A stretch of 40,428 nucleotides of DNA, taken from the IMG/VR virus record IMGVR_UViG_3300042924_002680, positions 1 through 40,428 of that record; one strand, written 5' to 3'. Numbering within the stretch: position 1 is the stretch's first letter; each line of letters opens with the position of its first letter. A program made the position numbers and the translations under genes. Origin of the DNA: a virus. The notes beneath the pieces are model-generated. The model did no database searches and had not been told where the DNA came from. It was given only the letters and a program-made list of their open reading frames with translations. Shown here one piece after another: positions 15,910 through 35,311 of this stretch.

Positions 15910-18243
15910 TCAGCGGGCTAAGGAATACTTGAAGGGGGCTTCCGCGAAGGCGGCATAAACGTGTGTTACGCCGTTATCATTGAATCCAGATATGTTATTC
16001 CGGATCTTAAATCCGTTAGACAAGAAATCAATGTCGGTGCTGCCTGTTTGCTCTGCGTTATTTAGGTTCGGAAACAGACGGGCAGTGATCGCATTTGAAG
16101 TCTCGCGGACAGCATCCATTACGTGCCAATTACCGGTAGTAGAGCTGGTCTTTATCAAGATCCACCGTGGCCTAAACCCACAGAACACAAACGGACCGTC
16201 GCTGGACCCGTTGCCCGTGTAGCTGCCGAACTTGCTGAAGCCCGCGACTTCGGACCACAGGTAGGCGACGTAGTTATTGCTGTTTGTATTTGTTTGGGTT
16301 GATGTTCCTACGCTAAACACGCTGGATGTTGGAGCGGTATTGTTCCAAGTAGTTGATGCTGCAGTTGATGCACTGGTGTCGTTTAAATAAAGTCGATTTG
16401 TCCACGCAATAGAATCGTGTCCAACAATCCAGTTATTAGTTCCACTCGTTCTATCTTTTACGATTATCATCTTTGGCGCAACACCAAGCGAGTGGGCGAT
16501 GGTGCGGGCAGTTCCATTCCCCGTATAGGTCACAATGTCAAACCCCGGCGTGGCGCTTTCGTCCCAGCACCAGGCGACGATGCTGTTGCCTGAGCCGTTG
16601 GTGGAGTTCCAGTTTTGAACGGGTCCTAGTGTGAAGCCGTTGGCGTCAAAGGAAACGAGGTCGTTGCCGGCGGATGATGTTGATTCGGCGTCAGTGACGT
16701 TGGAGCTAAGGCCAGCAGCGCGACCGCGCACTGAATCAAACAGGCCGTGGTAGGCAGTGCCTGTGCGGTTTTTGAACCAGATCAGGTCCGGCGAGAAGCC
16801 AAGGCCAGTGATGCTTTGGCTGGCGTTGGTGCCTGAGTACAGCTTCACGTCCATGTAGGCGCTCGGCTTCTTAATCGACGGCTCGGGCAGGTTCTGCGTG
16901 TTCAGCGCCACGAAGCCCGACGGCGGGGTGTAGGCGAAGGGGCGTTGGCCGAAGTTAAATTCGTAGGTGATAGAAGTAGCAATGTTGTCTCTGGCGATCG
17001 GGTAAAGCGGATTACTGTTACTGGCACTAAACGGTCCTTTGGCCAAGGTGCCGTTTTTGTAAAAAGATATTTGACTAGCTGTCCCGTCAAACGCTACGCC
17101 AATAACATCACCGTTTGTGTAAGTAATAGTATCGCTGGACCAATAGTTATAGCTGATGGTCGGCGGAAAACCCTCTGATCCACCATTTGCTATGCCAATC
17201 TGAGCGGCTTGAGAGGCAGCTGTAACGCCAGATGTTGGCGTGACTTCCCAGTACCATTTCTGCCCTGTTGGTATATTTACAGCAAATGTGCCAGCGGCGC
17301 CAGAACCGGTGCCGGCATGGGTTACAAGAGTCAAATTCCCGTTTGATAGCGTCCCAGCGTCTGACGGGGTGACAGGGTTACTTACTGTCAAGGGGTTCAA
17401 AACACAGTAATTCCCCCTGCCGTTGCCGCCATCGGCGTAGGGCGTTGGGGTGTCGATCATGCTGTCGTTGCCGGCGCCAGCGGTGACGCTGAAGTTGTTG
17501 GGCGTCCAGTTGTTGCCGTTGCCGCTGCTGTCCTTGCCCAGCGTGGTGCTGGTGGTGCCGGAGTTGTCCGAGAAGTTGAGGTAGAAGCCGTTGGTGCCGT
17601 AGGTGCCGGTGTAACGCTTGGGCTTCCAGCTGCCGGTGGTGGCGTCGGTCTCGCCAAAGCTGCTGGGGGTTAGGGCTTGGCCGTCGATGAAATGGATCTC
17701 GGTGAGGTAGCCGTCAAGATAGCCAGAGGCCGAAAAACTACCTGTTCCGCTTCCAATGCGGTGGTCGTTTGTATTGTTAATTTCAAGATCGAGATTTTGT
17801 GCCGGGTATGTTGCAGTTGTAAAGACAGTAATTTGAGTCCCGTTGACGTAAATCTTTACCCGGTTAGTGTCTATTGCTTGGGTCGTATCGACAGCCAAGG
17901 TGATGTGATACCACGCAGATGAATCGCGAAATACTTGTGTTGTGCTTAAACGAAACGTATGAGTACCTGTGTAGCGGGCAAACGTTAGACCATCGGTAAC
18001 GTTATCTTGAAACTGCAGATAAGTGATCGTGCCGCCGGAACCTGCAGTGAAGGTTTTGTTTTCGTCTCCAAGTTTTGAGCGTTTTACCCACCCACTCCAG
18101 GTAAATGTGCGCCTATTCCCCGCACTCGCCGGAGTCCTGTTGAGGTACGCCGAATCCGCCGAGTTGAACCGCAGGCTGCGCGAGATCTGGTAGCCCTGCT
18201 GGCCGCCAAGCAGCAGGAGGTTGGCGCTTCCGGGAACTCCCAT
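15910..18243 (-). CDS. Tail fibre / receptor-binding protein with LamG and SPRY-like domains
   Basis: A 777-aa protein. Residues about 18-205 form a LamG/concanavalin-like sandwich (SLRFNSADSAYLNRTP, FTWSGWVKRSKLG, WYHITLAVDTTQ, VKIYVNGTQI, YLTEIHFIDGQ). Residues about 295-440 are SPRY-like (WYWEVTPTSGV, VIGVAFDGTASQISFYKNGTL). From about 465 three repeats of an adhesin-like unit follow (LGFSPDLIWFKNRTG, LGVAPKMIIVKDRTSG, FRPRWILIKTSS), each with a W/Y-rich strand set. It probably sits at the tail tip and binds the host surface. Some parts (around 16300-17300 and 17700-18100) are visibly more AT-rich than flanking genes, suggesting domain exchange. Confidence 0.8.
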   Translation of the reverse strand: MGVPGSANLLLLGGQQGYQISRSLRFNSADSAYLNRTPASAGNRRTFTWSGWVKRSKLGDENKTFTAGSGGTITYLQFQDNVTDGLTFARYTGTHTFRLSTTQVFRDSSAWYHITLAVDTTQAIDTNRVKIYVNGTQITVFTTATYPAQNLDLEINNTNDHRIGSGTGSFSASGYLDGYLTEIHFIDGQALTPSSFGETDATTGSWKPKRYTGTYGTNGFYLNFSDNSGTTSTTLGKDSSGNGNNWTPNNFSVTAGAGNDSMIDTPTPYADGGNGRGNYCVLNPLTVSNPVTPSDAGTLSNGNLTLVTHAGTGSGAAGTFAVNIPTGQKWYWEVTPTSGVTAASQAAQIGIANGGSEGFPPTISYNYWSSDTITYTNGDVIGVAFDGTASQISFYKNGTLAKGPFSASNSNPLYPIARDNIATSITYEFNFGQRPFAYTPPSGFVALNTQNLPEPSIKKPSAYMDVKLYSGTNASQSITGLGFSPDLIWFKNRTGTAYHGLFDSVRGRAAGLSSNVTDAESTSSAGNDLVSFDANGFTLGPVQNWNSTNGSGNSIVAWCWDESATPGFDIVTYTGNGTARTIAHSLGVAPKMIIVKDRTSGTNNWIVGHDSIAWTNRLYLNDTSASTAASTTWNNTAPTSSVFSVGTSTQTNTNSNNYVAYLWSEVAGFSKFGSYTGNGSSDGPFVFCGFRPRWILIKTSSTTGNWHVMDAVRETSNAITARLFPNLNNAEQTGSTDIDFLSNGFKIRNNISGFNDNGVTHVYAAFAEAPFKYSLAR

Positions 18244-19026: not shown

Positions 19027-22000
19027 TCAGACCTCCCTGCCGTAGCCGATGGCGGTGTAGGTGAACTGGCGGCTCACGGCGCTGCCGGCACTGTTCCTAA
19101 AGGTTACCTGGAAACCTGTGCGCGTCACGGAAGCGATGGTGAAGTAGTCGCCTGTGGCCATGTTGAAGCCAGTGATACCGACCGATGGTGCCTCGTAGAA
19201 GGCATTTCCAAAGACTACCGAATAAGTGCCAACACCACTGGTGAGAGCCGCAGACTGCTCGATACGCTGCTGCAACTCCATTTCAGCGCCCAGCTCAGTG
19301 ATGATGATGTTCTGGTCCTCGTCGGTGCTGGTGGCAATCGTCTTGAACTGAAAGCCGCGGCCCCGCACGATGGCATTACTGAACTCCCGCCAGCCGCCCC
19401 AGGTCGGCGTGCCGCTGGGGTCGTCCTGAGTGGTGCGGACATAGGTGGCAGCGTTGACGCGATCGCCGCCGGTGCCGTCGATGTAGTCCCAGGTGTCGAT
19501 GTCAGAGGTTTGGTCGTCCCAGAAGTCACCGGGCAGATAAGGGAAGGTGACGAGCCGGCGGCGCAGATTGCAGTCGAACACACCGGGGAAGGCGTAGGTG
19601 GAGCCAAACTCGTACTCACCCGTTGGCAGCACACCGCCCACGCTGTCGATCGAAGCCAGGCCATCCCAGTTGTTATCGGTGGCCATTGCGTCAACGGCCA
19701 CGCCGCTGCTGAGCATGATGCCGTCCAGCCCTCCTACCTCAGCCAGACTGGAGACATAGAACATGTCGGTGTAGTTGCCGTTGAACGGCGGTGTCTCGGT
19801 CTCCTCGGCGTAGGTTTGCACCAGCAGGCGCGGCTGCGGTGTCGGCAAATCGACCACCACGGTGGTATCCGCCAGCGAGCGGCGACCGCCATCGTCCTCG
19901 AACTTGACCAGGTAGGTGCCCTCCAGCAGCGGCACCTGCTTCTGCGTCTGGCTGCCGGCAGCAGCCGCCACGATCTCCTGCGACTCCTCCCAGACGGCGC
20001 CGGTCAGCTCAACGTTGTGGCGGATCAGCACCTTGCCGCCGAGCAGCACGTCTAGCTCAGTACTGCGGTCCCAGCTCAGGATGGCGCTGGCTTCGTCAAT
20101 CGGGATCAGCGATAGGCCCGTCACGCTTTCGGGTGGAGCGGTCTTGCCGAACGCCTGCACCGTCAGCTGGGCCGGTTGCACCGAACGTCGCAGGCCCACG
20201 CTGATGCTGTAGACCTCGACCTGATAGGTGCCGGCAGCGGTGTCGAGGATCTCGTAATCAGGGCGGCGCTGCGTGGTGGACGACCAGTTGCCGTTCTGTG
20301 CACGCCAGCGCACCAGGTAATCGTTGACGCCGACCACCGGCTGCCAGCTGACGATGAGTTTCGACAATGCCCGACCGTTCAGCTCGTAGAGCGCCTCAGT
20401 GGCCTGCAGGTTGCCGGGCGTCTCCGGGATGATGTTGAGGTCGGTGATGTCGCGCTGCTGCAGTTCAGCGCCGCGTTCGACGTAGCTGTATTTGCTGGCG
20501 TTGTAAGCCAGCGCGGTGATCGAATATTTGGCGCCGTCTTCCTCTTGAACCGTCAGCACCCGCCAGGTGGATGTCTCGATCTGGTCGTTCTGCACCACCC
20601 AGACGCTGTTGGTGTTGGGCGCCGTGGTGAAGGCAGACGAGACGTACAGGATCACGCCGACGCGGTTGGTGATGTTGCGCGTCTCCACCGTGCCATCAGG
20701 CAGGATCACGCTCACCGTTGCGTTATCGGTAGGGAGGTCCGTGGCATCATCCACCGTCACGGTTGTGGCTGAAGCCGAAATGATCCGGCCGCCGCGGCGC
20801 ACGCCGGCACGCACCGGATCGCTGATCTCGATGATCTGGCCGGGCCTGACAAGCACGCCTGCGTCGATGCTGGCGGTAAAGCTGACCACCTCTGACTCGT
20901 ACCGTTCGGAGTAGAGCAGCCAGTCACCGATGCGGCTGGCCTGGCCGCGGGAGGTGCAGGCGAACGCCGAGATCTCGGTCTTGATGACGCCGTACTTGGC
21001 GATATTCTCCGAGTCCTCCACCACCTCGTAGGCGATGTCGCGGGTGTCGAGATCGAGGTAGCTGACCACCGCCACGGTGGGGCGCGTTTTGCGGCTGCTG
21101 CCCTGGTAGCTGAAGCCCTCGTCAGAGACGTTGGCCAGGGTGAACAGGTAGCTGGTGTCGGCGGGCTTGTCCTGGCTGATCGTGAGCGCACCAGTGCTCC
21201 AGTACGGCATGGCCCGGAACACCGAGCACATGTCGTTGATCAGCTTGTACGCCTCCTCTGGCGTCTGGATGTTGATGTTGCAGCTGAAGCGCGGCTCCAG
21301 CCCGCCAAAGCCATCGGGCACCAGCTCGCCGCAGTATTGGCTGGCTGAATAGAAGGCCCACTTGTCGAGCTGCGCCGCCTGGATGTGATCACCGAACCCG
21401 TAGCGGGTGGAGGTGAGCAGGTCGAACAGGATCCACGCGGGGTCTGTGGTCCACGCTGCAGCGCCAAAGGTGCCGGACCAGACGCCGCTGTAGGTCAGCC
21501 GGCCGGTGGTGCTGTCCACCGTGGCGTTGTTGGGGATCGCCACCTTGATGCCGCGCACCAGGTAGCTGCGCGCCGGGATGGAGTTGAACTGTTCCGCATC
21601 CACACGCATCGCCACCAACGCGCTGTTGGGGTAGCGCAGCTTGGCGTAGATGATCTCGGTGTAACTGGTCCAGCTAAAGGCGTTGAGCAGCTTGGCGCTG
21701 CTGCTGTCGGCCGTCACGCGCGTGACCTTGATGTCAACCGGGAAGGCGCCGCTCAGGTTGACCAGGTAGTCGCGCTGGTATTGATTAGCCGTGCGGCCGC
21801 TGATCGTGTCGGTGATGACGGTGGTGTAGCCGCCGGAGTTGTACTGCACGGCGATCTGCAGCTGAACGCTCGTGCCCTCGATGTCGCCGGCGTCGGTGAA
21901 CAGTTGAAGCTGCGGCACCGTGATGGTCACGCGCGCAGCATTCACGTTGGTATCGGTGATCGAGCGGACTACCGGCGTGGTTTGCTGCACCGTCACGCCA

Positions 22001-22761
22001 ACAGTCTTCTCATCCTCCACCTCTGAAGCGATGGGGATAAAGGTCTGGTTTTGCGTGCCGTTGCGCGTGTAGACAGTGACGTTCTGGAAGTTGTAGGTGC
22101 CGTCTGCGTTCTGCAGCGGGGTGTTATTGATGAAGATCGACTTGTGGCCATCCTTCAGGCCCTCGATCTCGCCCTCGCTGATCAGGTCAACCAGGTTGGC
22201 GTATTGCGTGCTGTTGAGGTTGTCGGACGCCTCGGTTGGGGTGCGGGTGCTGCCGCCACCTCCACCGCCCTTGCCGCCGTCACCGCCGCCACCACCCGAT
22301 CCGGCGATGCCCAGGCCCAGGCCAGCGTTATGAACGCGGATGCCGCCTGCGATGAAGGTGTGATGACCTTCAACCGTCAGGTTGTAGACGGTGCCGCGGC
22401 TGTGCTCGATGCACTCCACGATGGGCCGCAGGTGGCCGTTCTCATCCACCAGGCAGTCGTCAGCGCCGAGCGTGCCGATCTCAACGAAGGCGTTGAACTG
22501 ATTGAGCACCCAGTGGTTCGGGGTGGCATCGAGCACCGCGCCGCCCCACAGGCGGTAACGCACCACGCGCTCGTTTTCGTGGACGTGAACCTTGAGCACC
22601 GTCGCCTGGTGCAGCTCACCTTGGTCGTCAAAGCTGAGCACCTGATCGCCAGGGTGCAGCGCCTCGATGGCACGCAGCCCGTCAGGCGTGCGCACCAGCG
22701 TGTGCCCCAGAAAGCACCCGCCGCCGCCACCTCCACCACCTGCGCCAGCAAGACGTGCCAT
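19027..22761 (-). CDS. J: Tail tip/host specificity protein J with inserted Hint domain
   Basis: A 1244-aa protein from ATG 22761, whose first base is the last base of the gpI stop (TGATG). It is the central tail tip protein that carries fibres and contacts the receptor. From residue about 170 it follows lambda J: ASDNLNSTQYANLVDLISEG and GLKDGHKSIFINNTPLQNADG. The middle has VRWRAQNGNW and FN3-like domains (WQPVVGVNDYLVRW, ILSWDRSTELDVLL). A 130-residue Hint/intein-like domain lies near the N-terminus between Gly-rich stretches (see separate entry). If the domain splices, the mature protein would be about 1114 aa. Confidence 0.85.
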   Translation of the reverse strand: MARLAGAGGGGGGGGCFLGHTLVRTPDGLRAIEALHPGDQVLSFDDQGELHQATVLKVHVHENERVVRYRLWGGAVLDATPNHWVLNQFNAFVEIGTLGADDCLVDENGHLRPIVECIEHSRGTVYNLTVEGHHTFIAGGIRVHNAGLGLGIAGSGGGGGDGGKGGGGGGSTRTPTEASDNLNSTQYANLVDLISEGEIEGLKDGHKSIFINNTPLQNADGTYNFQNVTVYTRNGTQNQTFIPIASEVEDEKTVGVTVQQTTPVVRSITDTNVNAARVTITVPQLQLFTDAGDIEGTSVQLQIAVQYNSGGYTTVITDTISGRTANQYQRDYLVNLSGAFPVDIKVTRVTADSSSAKLLNAFSWTSYTEIIYAKLRYPNSALVAMRVDAEQFNSIPARSYLVRGIKVAIPNNATVDSTTGRLTYSGVWSGTFGAAAWTTDPAWILFDLLTSTRYGFGDHIQAAQLDKWAFYSASQYCGELVPDGFGGLEPRFSCNINIQTPEEAYKLINDMCSVFRAMPYWSTGALTISQDKPADTSYLFTLANVSDEGFSYQGSSRKTRPTVAVVSYLDLDTRDIAYEVVEDSENIAKYGVIKTEISAFACTSRGQASRIGDWLLYSERYESEVVSFTASIDAGVLVRPGQIIEISDPVRAGVRRGGRIISASATTVTVDDATDLPTDNATVSVILPDGTVETRNITNRVGVILYVSSAFTTAPNTNSVWVVQNDQIETSTWRVLTVQEEDGAKYSITALAYNASKYSYVERGAELQQRDITDLNIIPETPGNLQATEALYELNGRALSKLIVSWQPVVGVNDYLVRWRAQNGNWSSTTQRRPDYEILDTAAGTYQVEVYSISVGLRRSVQPAQLTVQAFGKTAPPESVTGLSLIPIDEASAILSWDRSTELDVLLGGKVLIRHNVELTGAVWEESQEIVAAAAGSQTQKQVPLLEGTYLVKFEDDGGRRSLADTTVVVDLPTPQPRLLVQTYAEETETPPFNGNYTDMFYVSSLAEVGGLDGIMLSSGVAVDAMATDNNWDGLASIDSVGGVLPTGEYEFGSTYAFPGVFDCNLRRRLVTFPYLPGDFWDDQTSDIDTWDYIDGTGGDRVNAATYVRTTQDDPSGTPTWGGWREFSNAIVRGRGFQFKTIATSTDEDQNIIITELGAEMELQQRIEQSAALTSGVGTYSVVFGNAFYEAPSVGITGFNMATGDYFTIASVTRTGFQVTFRNSAGSAVSRQFTYTAIGYGREV
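22327..22716 (-). other. Hint (bacterial intein-like) domain inside J
   Basis: Residues 16-145 of J. Block A is CFLGHTLVRTPDG with the nucleophile Cys16, followed by AIEALHPGDQVLSFD. Block B is ATPNHWVL, with the TxxH signature (Thr80, His83). The C-terminal blocks are VYNLTVEGHHTFIAGG and IRVHN, ending in His144-Asn145. The next residue is Ala146, not the Cys/Ser/Thr of standard inteins, so this matches type A bacterial intein-like (BIL) domains, which cleave or splice with varied +1 residues. No homing endonuclease is inserted. Eight Gly precede it and a Gly-rich stretch follows (GGGGGDGGKGGGGGG). Confidence 0.82.
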
Positions 22762-23348
22762 CAGCCGGTCACCTGCACGGTGTCAACGCCAGCCGAGATC
22801 ACAACAGAGCCCACCAGCGTTTCGCCGTAGACGATCGGCACCGGCACGCCTTGGCGGCTGGTGTTTTGGATGCCGCTGAAGCTGTAGGACTTGCGCGGGT
22901 CTTTCTCGCTGTTCGCTCCGCTGGAGCCCGGCGCATAGACCTGCGGCACTGGCGTGAGCAGCTGCGCCACGCCGCCAAGCACCAAACTGGCGCCCACACC
23001 CACGATCAGGCTGAAAGCCGTGGGACCGGCCCATGCCGCGAACCCAGGAATCAGGAACGCTGCAGCCAGCAGCGCCACGCCACCGATGATGCGGCCCACT
23101 GCACCGGCACCGGCCAGCACCGGGATGATCTTGATCTGCTGCTCGCCAGAAGGGTCGTGCAGCTCCTCGGTGCCCAGGTCGTAGCTGCCAACGGTCACGC
23201 GGTAGTACTGGTCAGCCATGTGCCGCTCCAGCTGCGGGAAGTTGGCCACCAGGAAACGCACGGCCTCAGCAGCGCTGGCCACCTCAGCGCGGAACACGCG
23301 GCGCTTCAGAAACTTCGCAAGCCGCCCATAGACCCGAATCTCGCGCAT
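22761..23348 (-). CDS. I: Tail assembly protein I
   Basis: A 195-aa protein from ATG 23348, matching lambda gpI. The N-terminal part has IRVYGRLAKFLKRRVFRAEV and AVRFLVANFPQLERHMADQYYRV, a ubiquitin-like fold. Two hydrophobic helices (IIGGVALLAAAFLIPGFAA, AFSLIVGVGASLVLGGVAQ) follow. The C-terminus YSFSGIQNTSRQGVPVPIVYGE is the usual signature. gpI acts with gpK, L and J to build the tail tip. It ends on the J start codon. Its gene order (L-K-I-J) is the lambda order. Confidence 0.85.
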   Translation of the reverse strand: MREIRVYGRLAKFLKRRVFRAEVASAAEAVRFLVANFPQLERHMADQYYRVTVGSYDLGTEELHDPSGEQQIKIIPVLAGAGAVGRIIGGVALLAAAFLIPGFAAWAGPTAFSLIVGVGASLVLGGVAQLLTPVPQVYAPGSSGANSEKDPRKSYSFSGIQNTSRQGVPVPIVYGETLVGSVVISAGVDTVQVTG

Positions 23349-23359
23349 CGTGGCCCGCC

Positions 23360-24082
23360 TCAGCCTCCACCCATCGTAGTGAACTCAGGATGCCGCAACC
23401 TGCGGCCCGTGCATTTCTGAAGCCAGCCGCCGTACAGGTCTCTGGAGCTGAGCCGGCCCCTGATGTGATGAAGCACCAGCTGATCACCGATGTAGACGCC
23501 GACGTGGTTGAGGCCCGGCCCGCTAATGCTCATCACCACCCCATCGCCCGGCTCCAGCTGCTCGTCCTCATCCAGCTCGCGGAAGCCTGCATCCTTCCAG
23601 TAGCGGTCAAACAGCGGCTCAGCCTCGAACTGCTCAGGCGTCAGCGGCCGCTCCCAGTCGAGCAGTTGCAGGCCGTGCTCGCCGTACCAGTCACGCACCA
23701 GCGTCCAGCAGTCAGTGACGCCCCAGGCCCACTCGCGGCCTATCAGCGGCGCCTTGTAGCCACTGGGCAGCAGCTTGCTACTCCATGCCTCGGTCTTGGG
23801 GTTGGCGATGTACCAGGGCAGATCAGAGCGCTCGATGGCCACCAGGTCCGGTTCGCTCGGCTGCGGTGGCGTGACCGGGTGGCTGTGGAACACCGCGATG
23901 ATCTCGCCAACATCTTCAGCCGCGGCGTAATCAATGGGATCAAGAATGAACTGATCGGTGCCGGTGGCCAGATTGCGGCAGGGCCAGTAACGCCGGCGGC
24001 CCTTGATGATGACCACCAGCCCGCAGGCTTCGCGGGGGTCTTCCGCCTTGGCGTGCTCCAGTGCTGCTTCGCGCCAGGTCAT
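23360..24082 (-). CDS. K: Tail assembly protein K: JAMM + NlpC/P60 peptidase
   Basis: A 240-aa protein from ATG 24082 (ATGA overlap with gpL). Residues about 1-100 are a JAB1/Mov34 metallopeptidase: Glu in [11 protein letters not shown], then [15 protein letters not shown] with the His-x-His...Ser...Asp zinc motif. Residues about 115-235 are an NlpC/P60 domain: [16 protein letters not shown] with the catalytic Cys, then [19 protein letters not shown] with the catalytic His. Such two-domain proteins cut tail proteins or cell wall at the tail tip during assembly or DNA entry. The domain order and length agree with lambda gpK. Confidence 0.88.
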
Positions 24083-24864
24083 GTGAAGTAGGTGCCGACG
24101 CCGGGATAGGAACCGAACGGCAGCTGGGCGGTGGCGCCAAACCGTGCCTGGCAGCTGCTGAGCCGCTTGCCGCACACATCAGCCGCGAGCGTGGGCACTA
24201 CGTGGTCGTTCTGGTCGAAGTAATTGGTGCCCGTGTAGCTGCACTCGCTGGAGCGGTAGACCCACTGGCAGATGTTGGCGATGCACTGGCGCTTGGGCGC
24301 GCGGATGCCGGCCAGGTCAAACACCGCCGCTAGCTCGAACTCCACAATGTCGCGCGTCTCAACGGTCTTCCGATCGACGTAGTAGACCTCGCGCGGAAAC
24401 TCAGCTGTCGGATCGGGGCTGTAGGGGCTGACGCCACCGGGAAAGTTGGCTGCGTCGAGATACCGGGCCAGCGTGCGGATGCGCGTCACCTTTGCGCCCT
24501 CCAGGCCGTCAGGCAGGCTCAGCAGCAGCGCCGTGATGGTGCCGAGGATGTTGCTGCAGCGGATCTTCGGCCGCGGCAACTGGCCGTTGCCGGTGTACTC
24601 AAAGCCCTCAGCCTCGATCGGAAACCGTTGATAGCTGTTGCTAGCCCACACGAGATCGCCATTGCCGTTGAGGTTGGTACCAGCGTGAAAGCGATAGGTG
24701 TCGGTAGCGCCGTGCTGCGCGCTGTTCAGCTGCAGCTCGAACAGCTCGATGACAGCGCTGGGCGCAACGGCTTGAAGGTCAGAGATTGGATAATCCCAAT
24801 CATCGCCAATGGCGTATCCAACGGCCCAATAACCTGGCTGAACGTAAAGGTCTTGTAGCGCCAT
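24079..24864 (-). CDS. L: Minor tail protein L (Fe-S binding)
   Basis: A 261-aa protein from ATG 24864. The first 150 residues are beta-rich ([36 protein letters not shown]). The C-terminal 60 residues carry the conserved four-Cys site: [21 protein letters not shown] and [15 protein letters not shown]. In lambda gpL this C-terminal domain binds a [4Fe-4S] cluster. It forms part of the tail hub together with gpM, gpI, gpK and gpJ. Overlaps the gpK start by 4 bases. Confidence 0.85.
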
Positions 24865-31989: not shown

Positions 31990-33786
31990 TCAGAGGGTGT
32001 TGTTGCCGCGGCAGAAGCCCTCAGGATGACGGACAGCGAAGTCCACATCCTGCAGAGCCACCACGCGCACGGTGCCGCTGGTGCTGTGGGTGTAAGGATC
32101 CACGGTCAGATCCAGGCCAGACCACATGCCCATGATCAGCTGGCTCCAAACGGCAAAGAAGATGTCGTTGGTAGCCACCTGGTTGGACACCACGGCGTTG
32201 TAGCCGTTGACGGTGCCGCCGGGCTCGAACACATAGGCGCCGGTGTCGGTGCCCTTGTCCTTGGTCTTCAGAGCGCCACGCATGGAGGCGTTCATCAGGT
32301 AGGCCATGGCGCCGATGTCGGCGTTGTCGGCAGCGATCAGGCTCTCCATTTCCACCACCTCGGCGTAGGTCGGGGTGTTGGCGGCGAAGTCCTTGGTGTT
32401 GATGCCGGTGGTCAGCTTGATGCCCAGGGGCTGGTTGCTGTTGCCCAGGCCGTAGAGGCCTACGCGGTCGATCTCCAGAGCCAGCACGGTGGCGAGATCC
32501 TGGCGGATCATCTGCTCCACGTCGATGCTGGACTGCAGCATCAGGCGACGGCTGTAGTCGGTAAAGGCGCCCACGGTCTTGGGCGACATGTTGACCTGAT
32601 CGACGGTCTGGTTGCTCTCAGTAGGAGAGCCAGACTCAGCCACCCAGTAGGCGGTAGCGGCGCCGGTCTGACGGGGGATCGCCACGTTGCCGCTCAGGCC
32701 GGTCAGGCTGGTCACGCCGAGGCCAGCCAAGGCGGAGCGGTTGCGCAGCAGCTCGATGAACGAACCGGGGCGGAAGTCGGTGCCGACCAGATCGCCAGCG
32801 GCAGAGGCAGAGCCCACGGTCAGGTCGCGGCGCAGCACCTCGTTGGGCACCATGATGCCCTGGGCGGTCTTGCCAGCTTTGGCGGCAGCAGCCTCGGAGC
32901 ACTCACGCTCGAAGGCAGCGGCTTCCCACAGCTTGCGATCCTGGGGGTTGGCCAGAGCGTTGATGGCGCGCTGGAAGGAGAACTCGCGCACTTCCTTCTC
33001 AGACATGCCGATGTCGGAAGCCTTCTCGGCCACCGGCTCGACCTTGGCGCCCAGCTTGTCGAGGACAGCGGCACGAGCCTCGTCGAGGCTGCGGCCACCA
33101 TCGATCAGCTGACGGCCCAGCTCGGCCATGCCGTGCTTGTCAGTCAGGGCGGTGATGCCGGAGATGCGGGCGCGCTCAGCTTTGGCAGCCTCAGCAGCCG
33201 CTTCAGCCCGCACCGCCGAGATGTCGGGGGTGTTTTCCATCGGAACCTCAGGTTCTGTTTCGGGGGTTGGTGATGCGGCTGGGGCCGCAGGATCGGCCTC
33301 AAGAGACCGACCCATACCCACAGTGGGGTCTGCAGGTATGCTAACCACGCTGATCTCATAAGGAGCCCAGCTGGTAGCAACGAAGTCGCCGCTACCTCTT
33401 TGCTCCATTTCGTTGATCGCGTAGCCGAAGGAAACGTTCCGCAGAACGCCATCCCTCACGTCAGCCAGCACCTCCTGTGCGAAGGCGTTGCGGCTGAACT
33501 TCACCGTGGCATAGCCACGCTTCTTCTGGCCGTCAATCCAGGCCCGCTCCACCACGCCGATCACCTTGTTCGGGTCGTGGTTGAACAACAGCGGCGCCGA
33601 ATCGTTCAGACGGCTCAGGTCGGCGCTGCGCTCATCGTGCTGCAGCACCTCGTTGCCGAAGTAGCGAGCGACCGGGAACTCGCTGGAAAATGGGAACTCG
33701 ATGCTGCGCTCATCTTCGCTGACCGTGAAGTCAGCAACCTCAGAGCGCTTCAACAGTTGCCCTTCTAGGTCACGCGATAGATCCAT
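31990..33786 (-). CDS. Fused prohead protease - HK97-type major capsid protein
   Basis: A 598-aa protein from ATG 33786 (GTG 33807 would add 7 residues and overlap the portal more). Residues about 1-170 are a U35-type prohead protease: LNDSAPLLFNHDPNKVIGVV with the catalytic His, GVLRNVSFGYAI with the catalytic Ser, WAPYEISVVSIPADPTVG. Residues about 180-300 are a charged helical scaffold (delta) part. From about 310 is the capsid: GIMVPNEVLRRDLTVGSASA, NVAIPRQTGAATAYWVAESG, YSRRLMLQSSIDVEQMIRQDL, VGLYGLGNSNQPLGI. The protease should cut itself and the scaffold away during maturation. An internal ATG at 33240 could make the scaffold-capsid part alone. Confidence 0.88.
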   Translation of the reverse strand: MDLSRDLEGQLLKRSEVADFTVSEDERSIEFPFSSEFPVARYFGNEVLQHDERSADLSRLNDSAPLLFNHDPNKVIGVVERAWIDGQKKRGYATVKFSRNAFAQEVLADVRDGVLRNVSFGYAINEMEQRGSGDFVATSWAPYEISVVSIPADPTVGMGRSLEADPAAPAASPTPETEPEVPMENTPDISAVRAEAAAEAAKAERARISGITALTDKHGMAELGRQLIDGGRSLDEARAAVLDKLGAKVEPVAEKASDIGMSEKEVREFSFQRAINALANPQDRKLWEAAAFERECSEAAAAKAGKTAQGIMVPNEVLRRDLTVGSASAAGDLVGTDFRPGSFIELLRNRSALAGLGVTSLTGLSGNVAIPRQTGAATAYWVAESGSPTESNQTVDQVNMSPKTVGAFTDYSRRLMLQSSIDVEQMIRQDLATVLALEIDRVGLYGLGNSNQPLGIKLTTGINTKDFAANTPTYAEVVEMESLIAADNADIGAMAYLMNASMRGALKTKDKGTDTGAYVFEPGGTVNGYNAVVSNQVATNDIFFAVWSQLIMGMWSGLDLTVDPYTHSTSGTVRVVALQDVDFAVRHPEGFCRGNNTL

Positions 33787-35311
33787 CGGTGTTGTCCGGG
33801 TTATCACTCACATTATCGTTCGCCGGCTGCGGATTACCTGCAGGTGCTGCGTCAGCCCCAGGATCGGTGTCGAACTTCAGGTCGAGCGCCTCAGCGTCGT
33901 CCAGCTCCTGCCGGCGAGCCTGCATCAGCTCCTCGATGTCACCACCTTGCTCCGCCACCACCTCGCTAAGGGTCTTGAAGCCGTTGCGCACCGCTGAGGC
34001 ATACGCCTCAACTTCCTTGGCCGGGTCCACCCAGGCCCAGCCGCGTGGCATCCAACGTACCGCCTTGTAGCGATCAGCCTGGATCTCGTAGTTGGCTAGC
34101 GGCAGCGCACCGCTCAGCACAGCCATGTCCAGCCATACCTCAAACACCCGCTGGTGCAGGTTTTCGATCAGCCAGTTCTGCAGGATCCGCCAGTGATCGC
34201 GGTCTTCCAGCAAACTCAGCCGGCTGCTGCTGTAGTTCGTCTGGCTGAAATCGCGGCTGACGGTCTCGTAGGAGCAGCCGACGCCGGCCGCCATGGCCCG
34301 CAGCATGGCCCGCAGGAACGGCTCGAACTGACCGTCAGGCGCATCCAGCTGCGGCACGCTCACGGATTCGCCGGGGGCCAGGTACTTGAAGACACCAGGC
34401 TCGAACGATGAGACGCGCTCGCCCTGGTACACCTCATCGCCCTGCAGCTCGCCCTCGGGGCTGGTGATAAAGCCCATCAGCGCGCTACTGGCCCGCGCAC
34501 GCACCACCTCGGCTTGCTCATAGCCCTGCAGGTGATGCAGCCGTTGGATGGCACTGGCGAACCATGTAACGCCGCGCGTCTGGCCCGGCCGTTCCGTGCG
34601 GTAGAGGTGGATCACCTCCTCAGCGGGCACGCGCTTGTGGCGCTGCGTGCTGATCTGCTGGTTGCTGAACTGGTAGTCGCCAGGGTGGTAGGCCAGGAAG
34701 TGATAGGCCACCGGGCGGCCCCAGGTGTCCACCTCAACGCCCATGCGGATCTCATTGCCCTGCTGGCTGCGGCCGTTCAGCCCGTCGTCCAGCAGGTCCG
34801 CTTCCAACACCTCCAGCGCCAGCGGCACCGGCGAGCCGCCGAACGACTGCTTCACCACGCGCACAAACACCTCGCCGGACTCAGCGCAGGCGCGGATCAC
34901 CAGGCGTTCGATGTCATGGAACGTGAGCTTGCCGCCGGTATGGCAATAGCGGGCCTTCGTCCACCGCTTCCAAGCCAGCTCGATCTGATCGTTGATCGTT
35001 GCATCAAGGCGGCCGCCGCCACGCTGCATCCGAACCTGGGCCTGGAAGGGGATGCCCTGGCCCACCACGTTGCCCTCAATGGCCCGCAGCGCCTGGCGCG
35101 CGTAGTCGTTATCGCGGCACAGCTGCCGCGCACGGTCGCGCAGCTTCTGCGCTGAGCCGTACACCTCGCTGTCGGCGCTGGTGTTGCCGGTCACCCAGTC
35201 GGCCGTCAGCCGGCTGAACTTGGCGCCCTCGTACATGCGACGCCGCACTGGCTTGGCCTGTTCCGGGGTGCCGCGCTGCAGCCAGCCCAGGATTGCGCTG
35301 CGGACGCCCAT
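33770..35311 (-). CDS. Portal protein (lambda gpB type)
   Basis: A 513-aa protein from ATG 35311. It forms the dodecameric ring through which DNA is packaged. It follows the Phage_portal_2 pattern: N-terminal RRRMYEGAKFSRLTADWVTG, SAQKLRDRARQLCRDNDYAR, AIEGNVVGQGIPFQAQ, then HDIERLVIRACAESGEVFVR, EEVIHLYRTERPGQTRGVTW, and the C-terminal VGCSYETVSRDFSQTNYSSS followed by ENLHQRVFEVWLDMAVLSGA. The start is tied to the gene before it (one-base overlap) and the end overlaps the protease gene. Confidence 0.9.
   Translation of the reverse strand: MGVRSAILGWLQRGTPEQAKPVRRRMYEGAKFSRLTADWVTGNTSADSEVYGSAQKLRDRARQLCRDNDYARQALRAIEGNVVGQGIPFQAQVRMQRGGGRLDATINDQIELAWKRWTKARYCHTGGKLTFHDIERLVIRACAESGEVFVRVVKQSFGGSPVPLALEVLEADLLDDGLNGRSQQGNEIRMGVEVDTWGRPVAYHFLAYHPGDYQFSNQQISTQRHKRVPAEEVIHLYRTERPGQTRGVTWFASAIQRLHHLQGYEQAEVVRARASSALMGFITSPEGELQGDEVYQGERVSSFEPGVFKYLAPGESVSVPQLDAPDGQFEPFLRAMLRAMAAGVGCSYETVSRDFSQTNYSSSRLSLLEDRDHWRILQNWLIENLHQRVFEVWLDMAVLSGALPLANYEIQADRYKAVRWMPRGWAWVDPAKEVEAYASAVRNGFKTLSEVVAEQGGDIEELMQARRQELDDAEALDLKFDTDPGADAAPAGNPQPANDNVSDNPDNTDGSIA

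Follow-up and report, generated by a model that had tools for sequence, protein, structure and literature searches.

An A-type-BIL-like Hint domain at the N-terminus of the phage tail tip protein J behaves as a cassette

Protein J, at the tail tip of a lambda-like siphophage, carries close to its N-terminus a Hint domain (residues 16-145) that is best described as an A-type-BIL-like (bacterial intein-like) domain in a new host protein: a phage tail tip, in which it forms an N-terminal pro-domain and undergoes cassette exchange. Judged by its conserved residues, the domain probably removes itself from J, cutting mainly at the Asn145-Ala146 bond. Some form of autoprocessing appears likely from the same residues and, if true, would bring autocatalytic protein processing to the lambda-like tail tip. 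No description of a Hint or BIL domain in a J-type tail tip protein was found in the literature searched, which covered few subscription journals, and the accessible portions of the papers on the lambda tip do not mention autocatalytic processing.

The J gene and its neighbours

The window, meaning the whole 40,428-base virus record analysed here, holds the gene set of a lambda-like siphophage, including terminase, portal, a fused head protease/major head protein, tape measure, minor tail protein, L, K, I, and J. J, numbered as 1244 aa on the minus strand, matches phrog_31 'central tail fiber J' (E 1.8e-254) and Pfam FNIII-A_GpJ (E 5.1e-38); these matches and the lambda-like neighbours L, K (JAB + NlpC), and I confirm the host protein as tail tip J, as the first-pass annotation of this DNA had named it (Table 1). 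The start of gene K is likely the ATG at 24082, as its overlap with gene L suggests. K had also been cast as a second processing enzyme acting at the tip; its JAB and NlpC domains are indeed present, but a tie between K and the Hint domain finds no support here. According to PMC10721106, gpK of lambda was not detected in virions by mass spectrometry.

Elsewhere in the window, a 605-aa protein (31990-33807) matches phrog_617, phrog_4523, and phrog_80, and its gene is a fused protease-capsid gene combining the head maturation protease and major head protein families. A 777-aa protein with DUF7483 and SPRY matches (15910-18243), encoded two genes after J, is a possible adhesin or fiber.

Table 1. 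Features of the J locus, with positions in the window
Feature	Position	Strand	Evidence
J gene, tail tip / central tail fiber protein, 1244 aa	19027..22761	-	phrog_31; FNIII-A_GpJ and Phage-tail_3
N-extein, residues 1-15, MARLAGAGGGGGGGG	22717..22761	-	translation; -1 Gly in 105/105 distinct stretches
15-nt direct repeat GGTGGAGGTGGCGGC, upstream copy in Gly codons	22723..22737	-	
Hint (A-type BIL-like) domain, residues 16-145	22327..22716	-	PT-HINT 1.5e-11; 2lwy 9.2e-11; AF2 model
Cys16 (Hint residue 1, block A nucleophile)	22714..22716	-	170/170 full-length Hint loci
Block B T-P-N-H, Thr80-His83	22513..22524	-	TPNH 151, TANH 18, TDNH 1 (n=170)
His144-Asn145 (block G)	22327..22332	-	170/170
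C-extein junction A-G-L-G-L-G, residues 146-151, cassette-linked	22309..22326	-	+1 to +4 conservation (n=105)
Gly-rich linker with Lys, residues 152-172, of the kind common to Hint-less J proteins	22246..22308	-	translation, alignment
15-nt direct repeat, downstream copy in Gly codons	22252..22266	-	
J body, residues 173-1244, start aligned with lambda J N-terminus	19030..22245	-	lambda J N-terminus from NC_001416
Gene I homologue, tail assembly protein	22761..23348	-	phrog_32
Gene K homologue, JAB + NlpC/P60	23360..24175	-	domain matches
Gene L homologue (Phage_tail_L)	24079..24864	-	Pfam match

Identity and fold of the domain

The first-pass annotation had described in J a Hint domain of BIL type, its active site complete and its +1 residue non-nucleophilic, and profile, structure, and residue checks agree with it. 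Its coordinates were exact, J residue 16 beginning at 22716 and residue 145 ending at 22327 on the minus strand, and Cys16, Thr80, His83, His144, Asn145, Ala146, and the Gly-rich stretches on both sides are all found in J. The best Pfam match is PT-HINT (PF07591; E 1.5e-11, 45.1 bits, cut-off 27.7), while Intein_splicing, Hint, and Hint_2 also match with scores under their cut-offs. The NCBIfam profile TIGR01443 (intein C-terminus) reaches 21.1 bits with whole J and 26.1 with the segment alone (cut-off 15.6), and TIGR01445 (intein N-terminus) scores 24.4 on the segment (cut-off 24.5). For membership of the HINT superfamily, profiles over their curated cut-offs (PF07591, TIGR01443) and the HINT fold are both present. 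The closest solved structure by sequence is 2lwy, a BIL domain of Clostridium thermocellum (E 9.2e-11; 3.4e-9 with a profile), which shares the Asn (YNLTV) that occupies the block F position in place of the usual intein Asp.

An initial structure model from 27 close homologues (pLDDT 67.8) was replaced by a second AlphaFold2 model, which used 40 more diverse sequences and included the junction residues. The latter reached pLDDT 88.9 and pTM 0.84, with 125 of 148 residues at 90 or above. The top Foldseek matches are BIL domains, namely 6y75 (1.0e-11, the best E-value) and 2lwy (7.5e-11). With VIA-align, the model superposes on the NpuDnaB intein (Z 21.4, rmsd 1.3 over 132 residues), Hedgehog 6tyy (Z 20.4, rmsd 1.4 over 132), BIL2 6tmm (Z 20.2, rmsd 1.9 over 141), and 2lwy (Z 19.9, rmsd 1.6 over 132). 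Among the top 19 rows, Z values to inteins, BIL domains, and Hedgehog span 19.9-21.4 over 126-141 residues; because they lie so close together, they identify the fold as HINT without separating BIL from intein or Hedgehog, which are told apart by the +1 residue and the His-Asn end.

Downstream of the Hint domain, Pfam and PHROG matches reveal the J body and no toxin domain, for which reason a polymorphic toxin PT-HINT acting in toxin release was rejected. A sterol-recognition region is likewise absent after the domain, where the Gly linker and J body follow. A homing endonuclease is absent as well, since the domain measures 130 residues in 170 of 170 full-length loci, which leaves no room for one.

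Relatives in viral contigs

Searching related J proteins for the same insertion, as had been proposed, gave a strongly positive result in scans of viral_contigs. When whole J served as the query and the best 80 loci were kept, 36 carried a full Hint domain at the same place, two truncated loci (L004, L040) carried part of it, and 42 lacked it; L039 and L054 begin past the site, leaving 40 clear empty sites. Scanning with the Hint alignment recovered at least 498 stretches encoding a relative, among at least 599 matched, of which the best 80 were kept, and a third scan took the divergent L155 J as its query. When 222 of the 227 loci (all but L081-L084 and L158) were searched with a profile, 172 contained the domain, 170 of them at full length. 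Some contigs were sampled two or three times, so that the set comprises 109 distinct DNA stretches, 105 with complete flanks, and 95 distinct Hint domain sequences, the most different pair being 57.7% identical. The loci are ranked best matches, and their counts are not prevalence figures.

Eight loci showed two profile matches, and a second Hint domain in the same locus was rejected, the second match being a chance stretch with E above 100 each time. Among the 42 Hint-less records, most of them fragments, PT-HINT was found elsewhere in none. The most divergent J-borne Hint domain (L166, 4028-4417) has TDNH in block B and AGLA after His-Asn; scanning with it for further J-borne relatives returned only L166 itself. 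At L012 6004, on the same contig as L135 and L187, the Hint domain is open in frame, with the usual MS.IVGAGGGGG start lying in another frame (RCRHEQDCRRWWWWRG); this frameshift inside the Gly-codon tract may be an assembly error, a true loss, or slippage.

Conservation of the active site and junctions

All 170 full-length Hint domains have Cys1, the terminal His-Asn, Ala at +1, and Gly at -1. An early count of 36 loci used a pattern that required the +1 Ala, and later patterns without that requirement gave the same result. The features that mark A-type BIL domains in sequence, namely Cys (or Ser) at position 1 with TxxH, a His-Asn end, and a non-nucleophilic +1 residue, are thus found, with Cys1 throughout, in 170 of 170 loci, while the Cys, Ser, or Thr expected at +1 of a class 1 intein is Ala in every one; on this ground the canonical intein was rejected.

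Of the domain's positions, 47 do not vary across the 95 distinct sequences. Column entropy averages 0.07 bits over residues 80-95, a value that is partly produced by construction because the search patterns lay in this block B region, and 0.15 for residues 124-145 (blocks F and G), which were part of no search pattern, against 0.46-1.12 in other stretches. The same trend is seen in the 79 of 170 Hint loci that also hold the J-core pattern. Pairwise comparison of 31 distinct Hint DNAs (465 pairs) puts the median dN/dS at 0.13 for Hint and at 0.24 for the J core, as calculated from the 382 and 344 pairs with dS 0.2-1.5; the Hint domain is therefore under purifying selection.

Among the 105 distinct stretches, the +1 Ala is encoded by GCC in 61, GCT in 31, GCA in 11, and GCG in 2. 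Ser, Thr, or Cys occurs at +1 in none of them, although Ser and Thr codons are one base away. Since Ala is constant across four codons with Ser and Thr so near, the missing nucleophile looks like a kept feature and not decay, and the +1 Ala is apparently held by selection; the 105 stretches share descent and are not a tally of independent events. Beyond it, Gly at +2 (105/105), Leu at +3 (105/105), and Gly at +4 (103/105) use 3 to 6 codons each, with drift from +5 on. This AGLG is not present in the listed Hint-less J proteins; it is conserved at the protein level and moves together with the domain. On the other side, Gly-Cys-Phe forms the N junction in 105 of 105, and the N-extein is short and variable outside its Gly run.

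Position in J and movement of the cassette

Lambda J (NC_001416) begins MGKGSSKGHTPREAKDNLKSTQ, which aligns by eye with GGKGGGGGGSTRTPTEASDNLNSTQ of the window J, and the conserved J body starts at about residue 173, past the Hint domain. Because the lambda start aligns beyond it, the domain extends J at the N-terminus as a pro-domain and is preceded by 15 residues. This refines the first-pass description: the domain lies at the extreme N-terminus and not deep inside J. The Gly-rich linkers had been taken to suggest a domain built for movement or release; they give no evidence of this, as the tract is J's own and is shared by Hint-less relatives. The Gly tract looks like the place where a cassette enters and exits. 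This insertion site is variable, and the host protein J is conserved and phage-borne. L161-L164, which belong to the L155-type J lineage, have only part of the Gly tract, the rest being replaced, in L162-L164 by Gln/Val-rich linkers; the Hint domain is present in none of the four.

Comparisons between close relatives demonstrate that Hint plus AGLG behaves as a cassette that is gained, lost, and exchanged. L006, with Hint, and L036, without it, have the same 5' flanks, over the part compared, up to the Gly tract and J cores 94.1% identical over 900 nt. L155 and the window J differ widely in the core (34% identical), yet their Hint domains are 82% identical, and L159 and L160, whose J proteins are 97% (aa) identical to that of L155, lack the domain; as L155 is represented by one contig, a chimeric assembly is conceivable there. 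Exchange is evident in L027 versus L059, where gene I is 96%, the J core 93%, and Hint 81% identical, the drop being centred on the domain; L024 versus L027 displays a similar dip over Hint, and L010 versus L030 the reverse pattern, with 97% identity in Hint and 68% in the first 500 nt of the core. A J-core tree with 129 rows, 89 carrying Hint and 40 not, requires 15 changes of the Hint label, at least five of them forced by well-supported branches; L039 was entered as 'empty' though its site is cut off, so that the count of 15 may be slightly off. Shuffled labels need about 34 changes, and the label is therefore clustered on the tree. The arrangement of the flanks suggests that gain and loss probably proceed through the 15-nt Gly-codon repeats, with no homing endonuclease. 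Hint-less sister phages exist whose J matches that of the Hint-carrying phage at 94% (nt) to 97% (aa) identity, and the domain is therefore not a general requirement for J function.

Predicted mechanism and alternative explanations

In the mechanism considered most probable, the 130-residue domain would fold between two flexible Gly tracts. Asn145 would cyclize with the assistance of His144, cutting the Asn145-Ala146 bond and freeing J with the N-terminus AGLGLGIAGSGGGGG. Block B (Thr80, His83) would drive an independent N-S acyl shift at Gly15-Cys16, generating a thioester that would be hydrolysed or, less often, attacked by the new amino end of J in a BIL-type ligation. Cutting should dominate over splicing because the fixed +1 Ala would block the normal branched intermediate. 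The mature J would then resemble that of Hint-less sister phages, and self-removal would make the cassette tolerable inside an essential protein. The reaction on the N side is probably of importance as well, whether in ligation or in freeing the domain, since the block A Cys and the block B Thr/His are as strictly kept as His-Asn. According to PMC4031507, type A BILs have a His-Asn end, form an N-terminal thioester, and undergo C-terminal cleavage by Asn cyclization; they can ligate their flanks via a free amino group without a +1 nucleophile, with cleavage products dominating. True splicing is reported in the literature for some A-type BILs, and ligation may accordingly be more than a side reaction in J. 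The tight conservation of AGLG, which goes beyond the needs of Asn cyclization, might point to a different reaction, and the domain could also be retained on J in virions.

Splicing as the main outcome, in which the Hint domain is excised and the 15-residue Gly peptide rejoined to give a mature J of MARLAGAGGGGGGGG-AGLGLG..., is unlikely. Cys1 and block B, needless for C-terminal cleavage alone, are as strict as His-Asn, type A BILs can splice without a +1 nucleophile (PMC4031507), and a spliced J would resemble the N-terminus of Hint-less J; against this stand the +1 Ala in 105 of 105 stretches, where Ser or Thr one base off would aid splicing, the dominance of cleavage products in type A BILs described in the same source, and the short N-extein that varies outside its Gly run. 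With the domain as an N-terminal pro-domain, the splicing of J raised in the first-pass annotation would restore only some 15 Gly-rich residues. Acyl transfer, in which a Hedgehog-like Cys16 thioester would pass the Gly-rich peptide of the N-terminus to an amine or alcohol of another tail protein or of the host surface and so create a covalent bond at the tip, is improbable. Gly-Cys-Phe is the Hedgehog junction tripeptide, and its presence at the N junction in 105 of 105 stretches, the fold match to 6tyy (Z 20.4), and the avoidance of a nucleophile at +1 would suit such chemistry; however, His-Asn is invariant yet needless for Hedgehog-type transfer, only about 15 residues would be moved, near-isogenic phages manage without the domain, and an acceptor candidate is lacking. 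Add-on beta domains are common in phage tips, and self-cleavage is a prediction from sequence, but the idea that the domain remains on J as a structural or adhesive element without catalysis merits little credence, given that the catalytic positions and both junctions are conserved while other stretches drift. A canonical class 1 mini-intein, which the similar fold and blocks and the occurrence of empty sites might suggest, is scarcely credible, with +1 Ala in 170 of 170 loci, never Cys, Ser, or Thr, and a site in a variable Gly tract instead of a conserved motif.

Self-removal of the domain by cutting at Asn145-Ala146 thus remains the preferred reading. Because near-isogenic phages lack the domain, a tolerated self-removing mobile cassette is favoured, with a benefit to the phage in assembly, such as holding back J assembly until cleavage, being possible. 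That J maturation is timed to assembly, as first proposed, is a guess, and an essential timing role is disfavoured because the domain comes and goes among near-identical phages. In a more ambitious and decidedly doubtful proposal, a phage lineage would have made a BIL domain into a mobile, endonuclease-free cassette for self-processing of its tail tip protein; selection would keep the +1 Ala and AGLG so as to withhold the thioester from ordinary splicing, and the domain would either remain on J during assembly as a timed cap or use the thioester to join the Gly-rich N-terminal peptide of J to a tip partner.

Comparison with known systems

The J Hint domain resembles the A-type BIL 2lwy in its HINT fold, Cys1, TxxH, His-Asn end, non-nucleophilic +1 residue, and Asn in the YN(L/F) block F, and 2lwy is its best match by sequence and among the best by fold. 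Unlike the usual BIL domains, whose hosts are described in reviews (PMC7765530, PMC5874633) as variable bacterial proteins, it resides at the very N-terminus of a conserved phage tail tip protein, as a cassette between phage alleles. PT-HINT (PF07591) is its best Pfam relative, but a J body and not a toxin follows. The BIL2 domain of Tetrahymena BUBL1 (6y75, 6tmm) includes the best Foldseek E-value, while the BUBL context named in the entry title is absent here. Class 1 mini-inteins (gp41-1 6qaz, NpuDnaB 4o1r, Mtu RecA) are alike in fold (Z 19.9-21.4) and in blocks A, B, F, and G; in contrast to them, the J domain has no +1 nucleophile and lies in a Gly tract near the N-terminus. Hedgehog domains (1at0, 6tyy) are alike in fold (Z 20.0-20.4) and in the Gly-Cys-Phe junction, whereas the J domain ends in His-Asn and continues into the Gly linker and J body with no sterol-recognition region. 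Lambda gpJ shares the gene order L-K-I-J and the J family, but lambda J starts right at the MGKGSSKGHTPREAKDNL segment, without a Hint domain before it.

Distribution and other phage Hint domains

The matches covering most of J come from cyanophages and Rhizobium phages, and the nearest terminases are those of Acidithiobacillus phage AcaML1 (53%) and Synechococcus phages S-CBS3 and S-CBS1 (46-47%). A genome_contigs scan yielded one relative, a 7-kb contig of tail genes from a MAG labelled Cyanobacteria; that the host is a picocyanobacterium is a guess. A cellular donor of the domain was found neither in genome_contigs nor among 200 genomes of that order, where the single positive was the same MAG, and a cellular origin was rejected on this basis. 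Among cultured phages, a similar Hint domain (E up to 0.01) occurs in 28 records, the proteins bearing names such as helicase, hypothetical protein, P-loop NTPase, or 'putative tail protein'; none of the 28, most of which were judged by feature names, is annotated as J. In BFVD, 'Putative gp62' A0A218MKA3, from an uncultured virus (segment of 1016 residues), has a Hint domain 41% identical and may, on that similarity, be a more distant family member.

With hundreds of alleles, near-isogenic phages with and without the domain, and a +1 Ala that seems to be selected, these phages offer a natural series for exploring how Hint domains persist without a homing endonuclease. The chemistry of the domain is approachable with a single expression construct, and it may serve as a small BIL for protein engineering.

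Other phage proteins also contain Hint-like domains. The C-terminal part of a collagen-like 'putative tail protein' in Salmonella phage Sen-NF (L082, 3032-4462) is a Hint domain, its His-Asn followed by only about a dozen residues; this is a second kind of phage structural protein with such a domain, and the match H56 in Alcaligenes phage Afa-NA1 scores similarly. Two Ruminococcus phages of the Heliusvirales (L083, 5482-6780; L084, 5236-6789) encode proteins that have at their centre a PT-HINT-like domain with differing C-terminal ends and that also contain hydrophobic, Gly-rich stretches; they lie a few genes from an FtsK-like gene, a layout resembling that of polymorphic toxins.
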